NCBI RefSeq assembly: GCF_028290105.1
Contig: NZ_JAQGKL010000163.1
Coordinates: forward strand, 1-58,533
Direction of reading: 5' to 3'
DNA from: Methylobacterium sp.
GTDB taxonomy: Bacteria; Pseudomonadota; Alphaproteobacteria; Rhizobiales; Beijerinckiaceae
DNA: 58,533 bases
In this document: positions 15,552-19,343 of the stretch, piece by piece
Layout of the letters: every line of letters begins with the position of its first letter
How positions within the stretch are numbered: the first letter of the stretch is position 1
Notes under the pieces: generated by a model
The model's database searches: none
The model's input: the letters and a program-made list of their open reading frames with translations, nothing else
Told to the model about the DNA's origin: nothing
Program-made: the position numbers and the translations under genes

Positions 15552-16175
15552 TCAATGCCGCTGCCCCTCCGGCCCGGCCCGGAGGTGGCGCGCCAGTTCG
15601 AGCCCGATCTCCAGCATGAGACGGTCGAGGATCCGGGTCAGCCCGGGGCGTTCGAGGTCGTCGGCGAGGCCCCGCAGGGCGATGGCGTGCTCGGCCATCC
15701 GGTTCACGATGTCCTGGTCCCGGGGCGCGTGCCCCCGGTCCTCTGTGAGATCGAGGACGATGCCCCGCGCCCGCGACGGCCGGCCTGCGGCGTCGCGCTC
15801 GACGCGCCCGCGCAGGTCCATCCAGCGCAGGTCCCGCCAGCGCGGGGAGGGGGCGGTGCGGAAGGCCACGGCGAAGGCCCCACCCCGCGCGAGGGCCGCA
15901 TGCAGCGCGTTCTCGACGCGGGCCCGGTCCTCCCCGTGAATGGCGGCGAGGAGGGCGGCCAGGGGCACGCCGCGCGCGCCCTCCTCCGGCTGGAGCCCCA
16001 GCGCCAGGGCCAGGGGCACCGAGACGGCCAGGCAATCCGCCCCGATGTCGTGCAGCCAGGCCCCGACGACGCCCGAGGCGGCCAGGGCCGCATGCAGGCC
16101 GCCCGGGCCCTCGCCGTCATCCGGATCGAGGGACGCGGGGTGCGTCAGGGACGTCCGCGATGGCATCCTGAACAT
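15552..16175 (-). CDS. PAS domain protein
   Basis: A 207-residue soluble protein. Residues about 28-145 form a PAS_3-like sensory domain: GVVGAWLHDIGADCLAVS at the start and RWRDLRWMDLRGRVERDAAGR before the closing GIVLDLTED, which corresponds to a PAC motif. The remaining 60 residues are a helical segment (NRMAEHAIALRGLADDLERPG) that resembles a dimerisation helix lacking a kinase His box. It could bind a small ligand and signal through a partner. Start could also be the second ATG at 16163. It is transcribed away from the parA gene, so their promoters share the 324-bp region between them. Confidence 0.7.
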   Translation of the reverse strand: MFRMPSRTSLTHPASLDPDDGEGPGGLHAALAASGVVGAWLHDIGADCLAVSVPLALALGLQPEEGARGVPLAALLAAIHGEDRARVENALHAALARGGAFAVAFRTAPSPRWRDLRWMDLRGRVERDAAGRPSRARGIVLDLTEDRGHAPRDQDIVNRMAEHAIALRGLADDLERPGLTRILDRLMLEIGLELARHLRAGPEGQRH

Positions 16176-16499
16176 ACCTGACTATGACCTGAGGTTGGGT
16201 GGTCGTGCAGACGAGATCGGCTTCGCACCAGCAGTACCGTAGGCAGAGTCGTGGGATTCGGAAAGAGACCCCGACCCGTCAGCCACTAGAAAATCAACCT
16301 GAGATTGATTGAGAGGGACCGCGCGCTGCGGACAGGCTTAACCGTTGGTTAACCATGATCGGCGACATCCGGGATCGCAGCATCCTTGGGTCACAGGACG
16401 GGGGCCATCGACCGTCCCCGCCTCCGATCCGGGCCTGCCGGACCTGTCCGCCGCACAGCCACCACCCGGATTCGTCGACGTTCGCGAAGGGATGCCAAG
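16176..16499. other. Divergent regulatory region between the PAS gene and parA
   Basis: No gene is supported in these 324 bp. It is AT-richer than its surroundings and holds short sequence signals: ACCTGAGGTTG at 16187-16197 and ACCTGAGATTG at 16297-16307 (10 of 11 identical), the inverted repeat AATCAA-N7-TTGATT at 16292-16310, three GANTC sites (16246, 16255, 16468), and a CtrA-type box listed separately. Confidence 0.6.
16338..16352 (+). promoter_or_regulatory. Perfect CtrA-type box, TTAA-N7-TTAA
   Basis: TTAACCGTTGGTTAACC contains TTAA, seven bases, then TTAA followed by CC, which matches the full binding consensus of the alphaproteobacterial cell-cycle regulator CtrA. It lies 147 bp before the parA start codon and 162 bp from the PAS gene start. 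TTAA is rare in this GC-rich DNA, so two copies at the exact spacing are unlikely by chance, but binding is an inference. Confidence 0.55.
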
Positions 16500-17138
16500 A
16501 TGAAAGCCATCACGTTCGTCACCCAGAAGGGGGGCAGCGGCAAGAGCACGCTCTGCATCTCGCTGGCGGTCGCCGCCCAGGAGCGCGGGCTCTCGGTCTG
16601 CATCCTCGAGATGGACCGTCAGGCCACCATCAGCGACTGGCTCGACCACCGCAGCGCCGAGGGCCCGGAGGTCGCGCAGATCGACGCGACGCAGATCGAG
16701 GGCGTCATGGCCCAGTTGCGCGAGTCGGCCTACGACTACGTCTTCATCGATACGCCCGGGGTCGATTCCGCCGGCACCCTCTCGGCGATCCGCGCCGCCG
16801 ATCTCTGCATCATCCCGTGCCGCCCGACGCCCGCGGATCTGCGCGCCTTCAAGCCGACGCTGGCGGCGATCTACCGGCTGGAGAAGAAGTTCGCCTTCGT
16901 GCTGAACCAGACGCCGCCGCGCTCCTACCGCATCCGCGACGCCGCCGACGGTCTGGCCGTGCTCGGCATCCTGCCCGACGTCAACATCGTCGCCCGCACC
17001 GACCACCAGGACGCCATCGGTGTCGGCCAGGGGGTCACCGAGTTCAACCCAAAGGGCCAAGCCGCCCAGGAGGTGCGCAAGCTCTGGGGCTGGATCGAGA
17101 AGCGCATGCAGGTGAGCAAGCATGCCAAAGCCGCCTAA
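16500..17138 (+). CDS. ParA/MinD-family ATPase (chromosomal)
   Basis: A 212-residue ParA-type ATPase with a deviant Walker A motif KGGSGKST at residues 10-17, a Walker B region YVFIDTPGVDS, and the C-terminal portion DVNIVARTDHQDAIGVGQGV typical of small ParA proteins that lack an N-terminal DNA-binding domain. Such proteins form ATP-dependent gradients or filaments that position DNA or protein clusters. No plasmid replication gene is nearby, so this is a chromosomal ParA. The ATG at 16500 begins directly at the fold (MKAITFVTQ); a longer frame to 16386 has no conserved extension. It overlaps the next gene by 17 bp. It may instead position a chemoreceptor, polar or carboxysome-like cargo. Confidence 0.9.
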   Translation: MKAITFVTQKGGSGKSTLCISLAVAAQERGLSVCILEMDRQATISDWLDHRSAEGPEVAQIDATQIEGVMAQLRESAYDYVFIDTPGVDSAGTLSAIRAADLCIIPCRPTPADLRAFKPTLAAIYRLEKKFAFVLNQTPPRSYRIRDAADGLAVLGILPDVNIVARTDHQDAIGVGQGVTEFNPKGQAAQEVRKLWGWIEKRMQVSKHAKAA

Positions 17139-17472
17139 GCTCAGTCTCGCCTCCATCGTGGCCGCGTCGGCACCGCCGGCCAAGTCTTTGCAGAACGCCA
17201 AGTCTCAGCCGACCGCCAAGCCTCAGCAAACAGCAGAGATCGTCCAGCTGGATACCGGTGCCGCCCCGCCCCGGCGCACCAATGCCACCCTCAAGGAACG
17301 CGCCCGGCAGATGTCGGTCTACCTCGAGCCGCCGGTCTACGATCAGCTGCGCGACATCGCCCATGCCGAGCGCGCCAAGATGCACGGCCTGATGCTGGAG
17401 GCCCTCGACCTGCTGTTCAAGCAGCGCGGGGCCCAGTCGATCGACCAGCTCAACGAGCCGGGCGGGCGCTGA
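17122..17472 (+). CDS. Ribbon-helix-helix protein paired with ParA
   Basis: A 116-residue protein. The first 55 residues are low-complexity and rich in Ala, Lys, Gln and Ser (for example AKSLQNAKSQPTAKPQQ), probably disordered and able to stimulate a ParA ATPase. Residues about 62-105 (ARQMSVYLEPPVYDQLRDI, then KMHGLMLEALDLLFKQRG) fit a ribbon-helix-helix DNA-binding fold. Its start lies inside the parA gene, so the two are co-translated. By analogy with small ParA/RHH plasmid systems it would be the DNA-binding adaptor and perhaps an autorepressor of the upstream repeats. That role is inferred. Confidence 0.7.
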   Translation: MPKPPKLSLASIVAASAPPAKSLQNAKSQPTAKPQQTAEIVQLDTGAAPPRRTNATLKERARQMSVYLEPPVYDQLRDIAHAERAKMHGLMLEALDLLFKQRGAQSIDQLNEPGGR

Positions 17473-17530: not shown

Positions 17531-17870
17531 CCTGGATGTTTCCTGTGAGGCGGAGTCGGACGTTTTTCATACGATCCGGGATGGGCGGAGCGGCCGAGGC
17601 CCGATCGAAGTTTATCCTGTGCCTTGAGGTGTTTGCCCGCATAGCCTGACACGCGACATTCGCCCCGGGCCGCCCCTTCCTCCGATACGAACGTCGAGCC
17701 CGCTATCGGCGTTGTTCAGCCTTCCTTTACGCCGTTGGGACAATCTTCGCGTCTCGGATGGGGCGCACGGCGCGTCCGCCGAGGGTCCGGCCGGTCCTGC
17801 TCTTGCCCGCCGGCGGGCCGATCCAGCGTGTTGTGCGTATCGGGGCGAGGGCTTGGGGCGGATCATCGCG
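17531..17870. other. Intergenic region upstream of rlpA
   Basis: About 340 bp with no supported gene. Open frames reach into it on both strands but lack conserved sequence and are continuations of rlpA frames. It presumably holds the rlpA promoter, which I could not pin down. Confidence 0.5.
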
Positions 17871-19343
17871 ATGGCGCGTACGACGAAGGCCGGACATCCG
17901 GGCCCGGCCCCGCTTCCGCTCTGGCGGCTGCTGGCCGTCTCGGCCGTGGCGCTCACCACCGCCAACTGCGCGCAGAACACCCAGAAATTCGCCGCCGGTT
18001 CCCCGAGTGGTTCGAGCCGCGACTCGAAATACGGCGTCAAGGCGAGCCCGCGCCTCTACGAGGAGGGGGATGTCATCCCGAAGGGCGGCGGACGCCGCTT
18101 CTCCGGCAAGCCCTACGTGGTGGCCGGGCGCACCTACGTGCCGCGCGAGGACGCCAAGGGCTATGTCCGCGAGGGCCTGGCCTCCTGGTACGGCTCCGCC
18201 TTCCACGGTCGCATGACCGCCAATGGCGAGGTCTTCGACCGCCACTCGATCGCCGCCGCGCACCCGACCCTGCCGCTGCCGAGCTATGCCCGCGTCACCA
18301 ACCTCGCCAACGGGCACTCGATGATCGTGCGGGTGAACGATCGCGGCCCCTATCACGCCAACCGCGTGATGGACGTCTCCGAGGAGGTGGCCGAGGCCCT
18401 GGAATTCCGCCGCAGCGGCACCGCGCGGGTCCGCGTCGAGTATGCCGGCAAGGCCTCCACCGCCGGCAGCGACGACCGCAAGCTGCTCGCCACCCTGCGG
18501 ACCGACGGCCAGCCCGCGGCCATCCGTGGCCAGGCGCCGGTGATGCTGGCCGATCTCGGCCCCGACGCGCCGCAGGTGTCCTCCGAGCGCCTCGCTCGCG
18601 CCAGCCGCCCGGCCCTCGCCTTCAGGCAAGCCGGTGAGAGCGAGGTCGGCGAGGAGACCGTGGCGGCCATCGGCGAGGCGCCCGAGGCCACCCCGCGCCC
18701 CGTCCGGCCCGCCCCGGTTCTGGTGGCGAGCGCCGCCACCCTCGCCGTTCCGGCCGCCCTGCAGCCGACGGCCGTGCGCGCGGAGGCGTTCCGGCCCGTG
18801 CGGCACAGCCCGTCCGAGAACCCGCCGGCCATGGCGCAGGCCGCACCCCGCGCGACCCCCCTCAGTCTCACGCCACCGCCCCTGCGGCTCGCCGGCGCCC
18901 GGCCGGACCCGGCCCGTTCGGAGGCCGGCGCGGGCCGGTTCGCCGCCGCACCCGCATCGCTCAAGGCGATGCAGCCGGTGAGGGCCGTGGCCGGGACGGA
19001 AATCCGGCCCCCGGCAGGCGTCCGGCTTGCAGCCGCGAGCCCGATGGTTCCGGCCCGCGCGGCCGCGCCGTCGCATGCCGCCGCCACCCCTCCCGCGCCT
19101 CGGCTCCCCGGCAAGGCCACGGCCGGGCCCGCGCCGAAGGCGATGCTGGCCCGTCTGGCTTCGGATGCCGCCGCGCCAAGCGTCAGTGGTGCCAAGGGCA
19201 TGGCGACGCGGGTCGCCGTCGCCGCCAAGGCACCTGTCAACGTCAAGCCATCCGTCACCGCCAAGGCCGCCATCACCACCACGCCGACCCAGGTCGCGAA
19301 GGCCGGCGCGCGGTCGCGCGCCCAGTTCGCCGAGGTGCGCTGA
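17871..19343 (+). CDS. rlpA: RlpA-like septal ring lytic transglycosylase, long form
   Basis: A 490-residue envelope protein. After an N-terminal hydrophobic segment (about 16-32, LWRLLAVSAVALTTANC) comes a double-psi beta-barrel RlpA domain with GLASWYGSAFHGRMTANGE, HPTLPLPSYARVTNLANG and VRVNDRGPY followed by RVMDVS. RlpA cleaves glycan strands lacking stem peptides at the septum. TANC could be a lipobox, but Asn before Cys is unusual, so lipid attachment is uncertain. The last 260 residues are Ala/Pro-rich and no SPOR domain is visible, unlike E. coli RlpA. Start at 17871 gives the signal peptide; the frame extends upstream to 17712 without conserved residues. It precedes the D-Ala-D-Ala carboxypeptidase gene, which fits a peptidoglycan role. 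Confidence 0.85.
   Translation: MARTTKAGHPGPAPLPLWRLLAVSAVALTTANCAQNTQKFAAGSPSGSSRDSKYGVKASPRLYEEGDVIPKGGGRRFSGKPYVVAGRTYVPREDAKGYVREGLASWYGSAFHGRMTANGEVFDRHSIAAAHPTLPLPSYARVTNLANGHSMIVRVNDRGPYHANRVMDVSEEVAEALEFRRSGTARVRVEYAGKASTAGSDDRKLLATLRTDGQPAAIRGQAPVMLADLGPDAPQVSSERLARASRPALAFRQAGESEVGEETVAAIGEAPEATPRPVRPAPVLVASAATLAVPAALQPTAVRAEAFRPVRHSPSENPPAMAQAAPRATPLSLTPPPLRLAGARPDPARSEAGAGRFAAAPASLKAMQPVRAVAGTEIRPPAGVRLAAASPMVPARAAAPSHAAATPPAPRLPGKATAGPAPKAMLARLASDAAAPSVSGAKGMATRVAVAAKAPVNVKPSVTAKAAITTTPTQVAKAGARSRAQFAEVR

Follow-up and report, generated by a model that had tools for sequence, protein, structure and literature searches.

Chromosome segregation in bacteria is generally attributed to an origin-proximal ParABS system. 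On plasmid TP228, the ParF-ParG-parH system combines a small ParA, a downstream RHH protein with a flexible N-terminal tail, and a site built of tetramer boxes and spacers (PMC7308502), and in archaeal SegA-SegB a chromosomal ParA is paired with an RHH protein that binds DNA; sites lie in front of the cassette itself, whose expression changes through the cell cycle (PMC12284271). ParA-family ATPases encoded outside a parAB locus, such as the orphans PpfA, McdA, and ParI, have also been described (PMC9178275). The sites on record for the cell cycle regulator CtrA include TTAA-N7-TTAA, an TTAACCAT variant, and sites with 6-bp spacing (PMC6180460); the Hyphomonas site is TTAA-N7-TTAAC (PMC7200025), and in S. 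meliloti CtrA represses minCD (PMC4433202). A literature search covering titles and abstract openings yielded no study of the ParA-RHH pair described below among the matches listed.

The window, the whole stretch of DNA that was analyzed (58,533 bases), is one entire contig of a 4,162,597-bp draft genome. It carries a ParA-RHH pair that we interpret as a partition cassette of plasmid type, akin to ParF/ParG, that was domesticated in the chromosome and is predicted to be controlled by CtrA. We put the probability of this reading at roughly 45%; because it is a chain of linked steps, the figure can be no higher than that of its weakest step.

A small ParA and its RHH partner

A sequence-only reading of this DNA had placed a small ParA and an RHH protein directly behind a CtrA box, and both genes were confirmed. 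The parA gene (16500..17138, plus strand, ATG at 16500) encodes a ParF-like ATPase of 212 aa with the deviant Walker A motif KGGSGKST near its N terminus and with Pfam and PDB matches. The rhh gene (17122..17472, plus strand) encodes a partner of 116 aa that passes the Pfam cut-off for Antitox_RHH (PF20605; 29.6 bits, cut-off 27.2), and its start overlaps the 3' end of parA (17122 versus 17138). The named orthologous loci are the best 80 of 102 relatives found among genome contigs; in these 80 the closest relatives of the ParA are from Methylobacterium, and an RHH gene lies 3' of ParA in every one. A divergent PAS-domain gene (15552..16175, minus strand; Pfam) is a neighbor outside the cassette. 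Downstream, an ORF for an RlpA-like septal-ring lytic transglycosylase (17712..19343 in its longest form, plus strand; Pfam and NCBIfam) is a syntenic neighbor matched in 77 of the 80 loci, and a tmk match lies near the pair in 55 of 80, a figure limited by contig ends. The few neighbors tested were rsmI-, PAS-, rlpA-, and tmk-like; the earlier remark that plasmid genes are absent nearby holds for these few, and there is no chemotaxis gene among them. An Rfam search of the whole window gave no match.

Pfam models for AAA_31, MipZ, CbiA, and VirC1 all scored above their cut-offs on ParA. The MipZ match (53.8 bits versus a cut-off of 20.7) has its best stretch in residues 4-53, and MipZ structures reached at most 37 bits against this ParA, versus 56 bits for ParF. 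The broader Pfam VirC1 model passes (34.3 versus 24); the NCBIfam VirC1 equivalog scored 34.2 versus a cut-off of 313, and NCBIfam ParA_partition (NF041546) scored 149.2 bits, under its cut-off of 180. The best PDB match was ParF, both by sequence (4dzz) and by fold (TM about 0.7, with a mean pLDDT of 69 for the model), and the fold alignments gave 20 to 23% identity to ParF chains. The protein has the form expected in a ParF/ParG cassette, a ParA of about 200 aa with a deviant Walker A motif and no N-terminal HTH.

The partner also has the form of that cassette, an adjacently encoded RHH protein with a flexible basic N terminus (PF20605, 80/80 loci, alignment). Across the alignment, invariant residues extend from Leu57 to Glu69 and occur in the helices, the conserved N-terminal parts are MSKPPKLSLASIVAA and AEIVxLD, and there is a linker of variable length. 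The disordered Lys/Gln-rich front that had been read from the sequence is a feature of the window's own RHH protein; in the alignment that stretch is the variable linker. The monomer model is poor (pLDDT 68.9, no strand) and does not reproduce the RHH fold, with residues 9-16 modeled as a helix at low confidence. We infer that the conserved N-terminal peptide contacts ParA. Similar basic N termini with Pro and Ser-Leu are found on otherwise different RHH proteins of plasmids and other genomes, a short basic Pro-Ser-Leu peptide opening the differing RHH partners at L198, L200, L201, L124, L123, L120, and L202; this peptide is possibly a common ParA-contact motif.

A predicted CtrA box upstream of parA

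The predicted CtrA site (16338..16356, plus strand) consists of TTAACCGTTGGTTAA at 16338-16352 followed by CCAT and lies 147 bp 5' of parA. The TTAA-N7-TTAA originally pointed out here is present and is the sole one in the window; none of 100 dinucleotide shuffles contained one. The draft genome as a whole holds 19 such sites, versus 2 for the reversed control pattern. When the spacing was varied from N2 to N14, the total was 39 (reversed control, 44), with 19 at N7 and 20 over the 12 other spacings, which places the enrichment in the 7-bp spacing.

The genes at the 18 other N7 sites were represented by 30 flanking ORFs, chosen mechanically and compared with Pfam at an E value of 1e-5; a family was matched by 16 and none by the remaining 14. 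The families include uroporphyrinogen decarboxylase (hemE-like) opposite a kinase/pyrophosphorylase, a chemoreceptor, a flagellar basal-body rod protein, a secretin-like protein, and an SLT transglycosylase, together with several that have no obvious cell cycle link (myo-inositol-phosphate synthase, DHDPS, a heparinase-like protein, IalB, and an AMP-binding enzyme). The site between the hemE-like and kinase/pyrophosphorylase genes (positions 1958-1972 of L151; G000:C7:14157-14171) has origin-like surroundings; alphaproteobacterial origins are located near hemE.

Each of the four relatives tested has a CtrA of 81 to 85% identity, truncated in one of them where the contig stops, and relative G117 has one close match. 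In the window's own draft, close CtrA matches (79 to 89% identical) are confined to four fragments (L204-L207), two N-terminal and two C-terminal, at the ends of contigs G000:C51, C86, C93, and C247, and the draft may hold two near-identical ctrA copies or two strains.

Conservation of the box in orthologous promoters had been set beforehand as the refutation test of the CtrA reading, and the reading survived it. A stretch of at least 381 bp precedes parA in 79 of the named loci (L079, with 63 bp, was dropped), and 78 of these have an exact TTAA-N7-TTAA starting at -91 to -245 from parA; the exception, L023, has one mismatch (TTTA) with CCAT still present. Of 17 further assemblies that were fetched, some perhaps identical with named ones, 16 have the exact box and G394 has one with 6-bp spacing. 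Both TTAA halves are invariant by construction in the alignment of 80 boxes (78 named loci, the window, and L115). Box position 5 is C in 76 of these, and CCAT stands on the parA side in 77, with a one-base change each in L054, L073, and L080; its mirror, ATGG, precedes the far half in none of the 80. The extended TTAACCAT half faces parA, and the full extended consensus is TTAAC-N6-TTAACCAT. The seven inner bases occur in 53 distinct versions among the 78 exact named boxes, so that the spacer drifts between half-sites that stay fixed. In the promoter alignment, no conserved -10 element 3' of the box was recognized by eye.

Such fixed half-sites around a drifting spacer, together with a mean ParA column identity of 83% (alignment of 33 rows), indicate selection and speak against a resident partition pair that is now functionless and conserved through slow drift. 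That reading draws on the uneven presence of the pair in the genus, where 91 of 111 genomes have the ParA at E values up to 1e-90 and the pair was not found in 20, yet we consider it very improbable. These 20 genomes are at the large end of the genus (6.2 to 8.8 Mb), and the RHH profile gave weak matches (E of 2.6e-11 or worse) in 10 of them and none in the other 10.

Where the PAS gene is present, the box lies in an intergenic region common to both genes, and it could have served the PAS gene rather than parA. It is kept, however, in nine loci in which no PAS match was found (L018, L072, L074-L078, L080, and L081); L080, with only 381 bp upstream, was not counted, and the other eight have at least 796 bp. 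Retention of the box where the divergent gene was not found argues that the box belongs to parA, as does the orientation of the CCAT side toward parA in 77 of 80 boxes, and the PAS side has a motif of its own. Ownership by the PAS gene is in effect ruled out. The motif in question, ACCTNARRT, is repeated at 16187-16195 and 16297-16305 in the parA/PAS intergenic region and was found in 68 of 70 loci with a PAS match and in 0 of 9 without one; it is probably the operator of the PAS gene, and its tracking of that gene ruled it out as an RHH site.

The box is also specific among ParA relatives. Across 297 genomes of the order, 40 places with a ParA match were chosen and fetched (L111-L150). The box is present in all of L111-L115 (79 to 95% ParA identity), some of L111-L114 being the same records as named loci and not added to the 79, and in 2 of the 35 places L116-L150 (30 to 60% identity), both in G238. 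A tree was built of 70 ParA sequences: the one from the window, 8 from plasmid loci, 26 from the 80 named loci, and 35 from the 36 places L115-L150, where L119 was excluded for its internal stop. On this tree the box label needs 4 changes, versus 23.1 under shuffling, and none of 500 shuffles got by with so few. Support for the 28-row chromosomal group is 93/89, below the starred level, and a long-branch warning applies to the tree; the sole unlabeled row of the group is L079, which is cut short. The boxes of the Methylocystis plasmid branch (L118, L195, and L196) and of L127 arise separately. L127 (G238:C6:3050571), also a chromosomal ParA (42% identity) and located 53 kb from parB, has a TTAA-N7-TTAA at -130, and no RHH gene was found adjoining it.

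From these sequence comparisons, linkage of the cassette to CtrA is highly probable, and the in-silico case for CtrA control of parA-rhh is well supported. Of the cell-cycle-timed positioning system first proposed, the timing has gained this in-silico case (78/79 promoters, the extended half in 77/80, and a box that tracks parA); positioning would follow from a ParA resembling ParF, its RHH partner, and the repeats, and localization and cargo are putative.

GGAT/ATCC repeats and the possible cargo of the pair

Downstream of the box lie GGAT/ATCC tetramers at 16367, 16372, and 16382 (region 16367..16399, plus strand), a proposed RHH operator or centromere-like site that includes a core, ATCCTTGGGTCACAGGAC, at 16382-16399 (plus strand); further tetramers at 16427, 16468, and 16490 (plus strand) stand between the core and parA. 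Repeats were counted in 81 promoters (the 78 named loci with a box, L023, the window, and L115) against 2,503 background windows of flanking, mostly coding DNA. Like-oriented tetramers (GGAT-GGAT or ATCC-ATCC) occur 26 times at an offset of 8 in the 81 promoters (32 per 100 versus 0.16 per 100 in the background) and 22 times at an offset of 16 (versus 1.0 per 100 background windows), and GGAT..ATCC at an offset of 10 occurs 53 times (65 per 100 versus 0.32). The core ATCCNTGGNTCACAGGA, which was derived from the same related promoters on which it was scored, is matched with at most 3 mismatches in 72 of 81 promoters versus 0 of 400 random background windows. The other nine promoters have 4 to 8 mismatches despite an RHH gene downstream, six of them 5 to 8 (L038, L042, L055, L063, L064, and L069); decay of the core in part of the genus while the RHH gene remains argues against a strict one-to-one link between them.

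The third feature of a ParF/ParG cassette, an upstream tetramer array with regular spacers, is present and is degenerate in part of the genus. Set in an 8-bp register downstream of the box, the array resembles parH, the ParG centromere, by analogy of layout, that is, of tetramers plus spacers, and judged by sequence the cassette is ParFGH-like in anatomy. We lean toward binding of these repeats by the RHH protein.

In the window's own genome the core is exact at one place only, the parA promoter, so the site may be just an operator. Three other places match it with 2 mismatches, versus 0 for the reversed control, and appear isolated by eye. A core pattern search of relatives G117 and G250 did not match their own parA-rhh locus itself, so degenerate distal copies are conceivable. 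About position 1526 of L211 (G250:C27:25124-25141), away from parA, a core-like sequence with 2 mismatches and GGAT/ATCC neighbors stands directly before a start codon and is possibly a second RHH site in G250.

Two sister genomes, G071 and G231 (L116 and L117), on a branch beside the chromosomal group, show that ParA can persist without the RHH protein. Their ParA is 59 to 60% identical to that of the window, the next ORF is not RHH, and an RHH match is absent genome-wide in both. Upstream is a near-perfect box, TTCACCATCCGTTAACCAT (TTCA-N7-TTAACCAT), at -148/-147. The best core match there has 5 mismatches, and 150 bp contain 3 and 4 tetramers, close to the average of 3.7 found 3' of the box across the 81 promoters, so what was lost is the core alone and not the number of tetramers; this makes binding of the array by the RHH protein less likely, and our estimate for it was lowered on that ground. 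The two genomes share one genus and represent at most one event. Their pattern fits, and does not prove, a core that goes with the RHH gene and a box that goes with parA.

The same observations bear on what the pair would move. The exact core at its own promoter only, the two sister genomes with a near-boxed ParA and no RHH match, and the RlpA-like septal gene downstream of most loci would suit a CtrA-timed pair whose RHH protein acts on DNA only as an autorepressor, with ParA positioning a pole, envelope, or division cargo by a logic like that of PpfA or McdA. Retention of the RHH gene in all 80 orthologous loci counts against such a cargo, as does the makeup of the nearest relatives on plasmids: these are ParA-RHH pairs as well, and two have period-8 repeats upstream. 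The adjacency of rlpA may be chance synteny. We regard a non-DNA cargo as unlikely, and DNA as the cargo of the ParA-RHH system as an even proposition.

Proposed plasmid ancestry, chromosomal position, and known systems

The orthologous loci are on chromosome-sized contigs, bearing out the chromosomal residence that the sequence-only reading had assumed. ParA relatives are present in 1,850 of 72,556 plasmid records, all below 60% identity. Plasmid or phage residence was rejected, with no plasmid ParA at 60% or more in these records and viral contigs lacking a close relative, and a defense system was rejected after PADLOC gave no match. The best listed plasmid ParA sequences (52 to 53% identity) are those of Methylocystis iwaonis plasmids NZ_CP143318.1 and NZ_AP027147.1 (L195 and L196), which also have an RHH gene, a TTAA-N7-TTAA at -80/-88, and repeats of period 8 that differ in sequence. 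Of eight plasmid regions read, these two have the box and six lack it. A contig of G238 (L118) resembles the Methylocystis iwaonis plasmid ParA-RHH operons and has its own TTAA-N7-TTAA. Judging from the boxes, which in L195 and L196 lie upstream of position 1498, partition of the Methylocystis plasmids may be tied to the host cell cycle.

The existence of plasmid relatives of the ParA would also accommodate a plasmid-incompatibility or control device that came from an integrated plasmid and was kept for that benefit, for which the chromosomal orphan ParI, acting against IncP-7 plasmids, is a precedent (PMC9178275). The Methylocystis plasmids carry other repeat words, however, just 3 of the 72,556 plasmid records have a match to the RHH protein at an E value of 1e-3, and a fixed CtrA box is unexpected in a plasmid decoy; we find this explanation improbable.

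Position was expressed as distance from parB divided by half the contig in 18 chromosome-sized contigs that carry the pair (partial G332 was dropped), with circularity assumed. The median was 0.90 and the mean 0.83; 17 of 18 loci are in the terminus half (0.61 to 0.99), 13 of them at 0.75 or beyond, and the lowest values are those of G322 (0.20) and G367 (0.61). Synteny with rlpA, and often with tmk, suggests that the terminus-side position is perhaps inherited, and the location may be inherited synteny. The locus is not a canonical ParABS system; the partner is RHH and not ParB, parB is elsewhere (G000:C208 in the window's draft), and the locus is far from parB in 17 of the 18 chromosomes.

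In the mechanism that we propose, a plasmid-type ParF/ParG cassette would have settled in the chromosome of Methylobacteriaceae and relatives and then come under CtrA. CtrA at TTAA-N7-TTAACCAT upstream of parA would set the cell cycle timing of the pair, by activation or repression, and an RHH dimer on the GGAT/ATCC repeats between the box and parA would form an autorepression operator, a centromere-like site, or both. The basic N-terminal RHH peptide would, as in ParG, engage ParA and trigger ATP hydrolysis, and nucleoid-bound ParA might then move or tether the complex together with the terminus-half chromosome region that carries the site. A bolder version, which we consider decidedly unlikely, is a second, cell-cycle-gated segrosome in which the CtrA-timed ParA-RHH pair grips the GGAT array at the terminus half, ParABS serves the origin and this other ParA machine the terminus, CtrA wiring was gained repeatedly (chromosome and Methylocystis plasmids), and ParA outlived the RHH protein in one sister lineage. 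The GGAT/ATCC array, the plasmid ancestry, and the lineage with ParA and no RHH gene all go beyond the sequence-only reading.

Set beside ParF-ParG-parH, with which it shares a small ParA, a downstream RHH protein with a flexible tail, and tetramers with spacers, the domesticated cassette, known here from sequence, differs in being chromosomal and behind a CtrA box, in its GGAT tetramer, and in the low identity of its ParA to ParF. The Methylocystis iwaonis pair has a related N-terminal RHH peptide, a box, and period-8 repeats but is plasmid-borne, uses other repeat words, and has a separate box origin in the tree. Unlike the orphans PpfA, McdA, and ParI, this ParA has an RHH partner and a repeat array. 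The full site, the TTAACCAT variant, and the 6-bp spacing all match described CtrA sites, whereas a ParA-RHH target is not mentioned in the available portions of PMC6180460 and PMC7200025. The likeness to SegA-SegB is drawn without a claim of kinship; SegB binds many chromosomal sites (PMC12284271), whereas in the window's own genome an exact copy of the core occurs at the cassette's promoter alone. If our reading is true, the locus would be a case of a selfish partition cassette turned into a cellular part, and a resident plasmid-type segrosome tied to the master regulator of the cell cycle would give bacteria a counterpart to archaeal SegAB.
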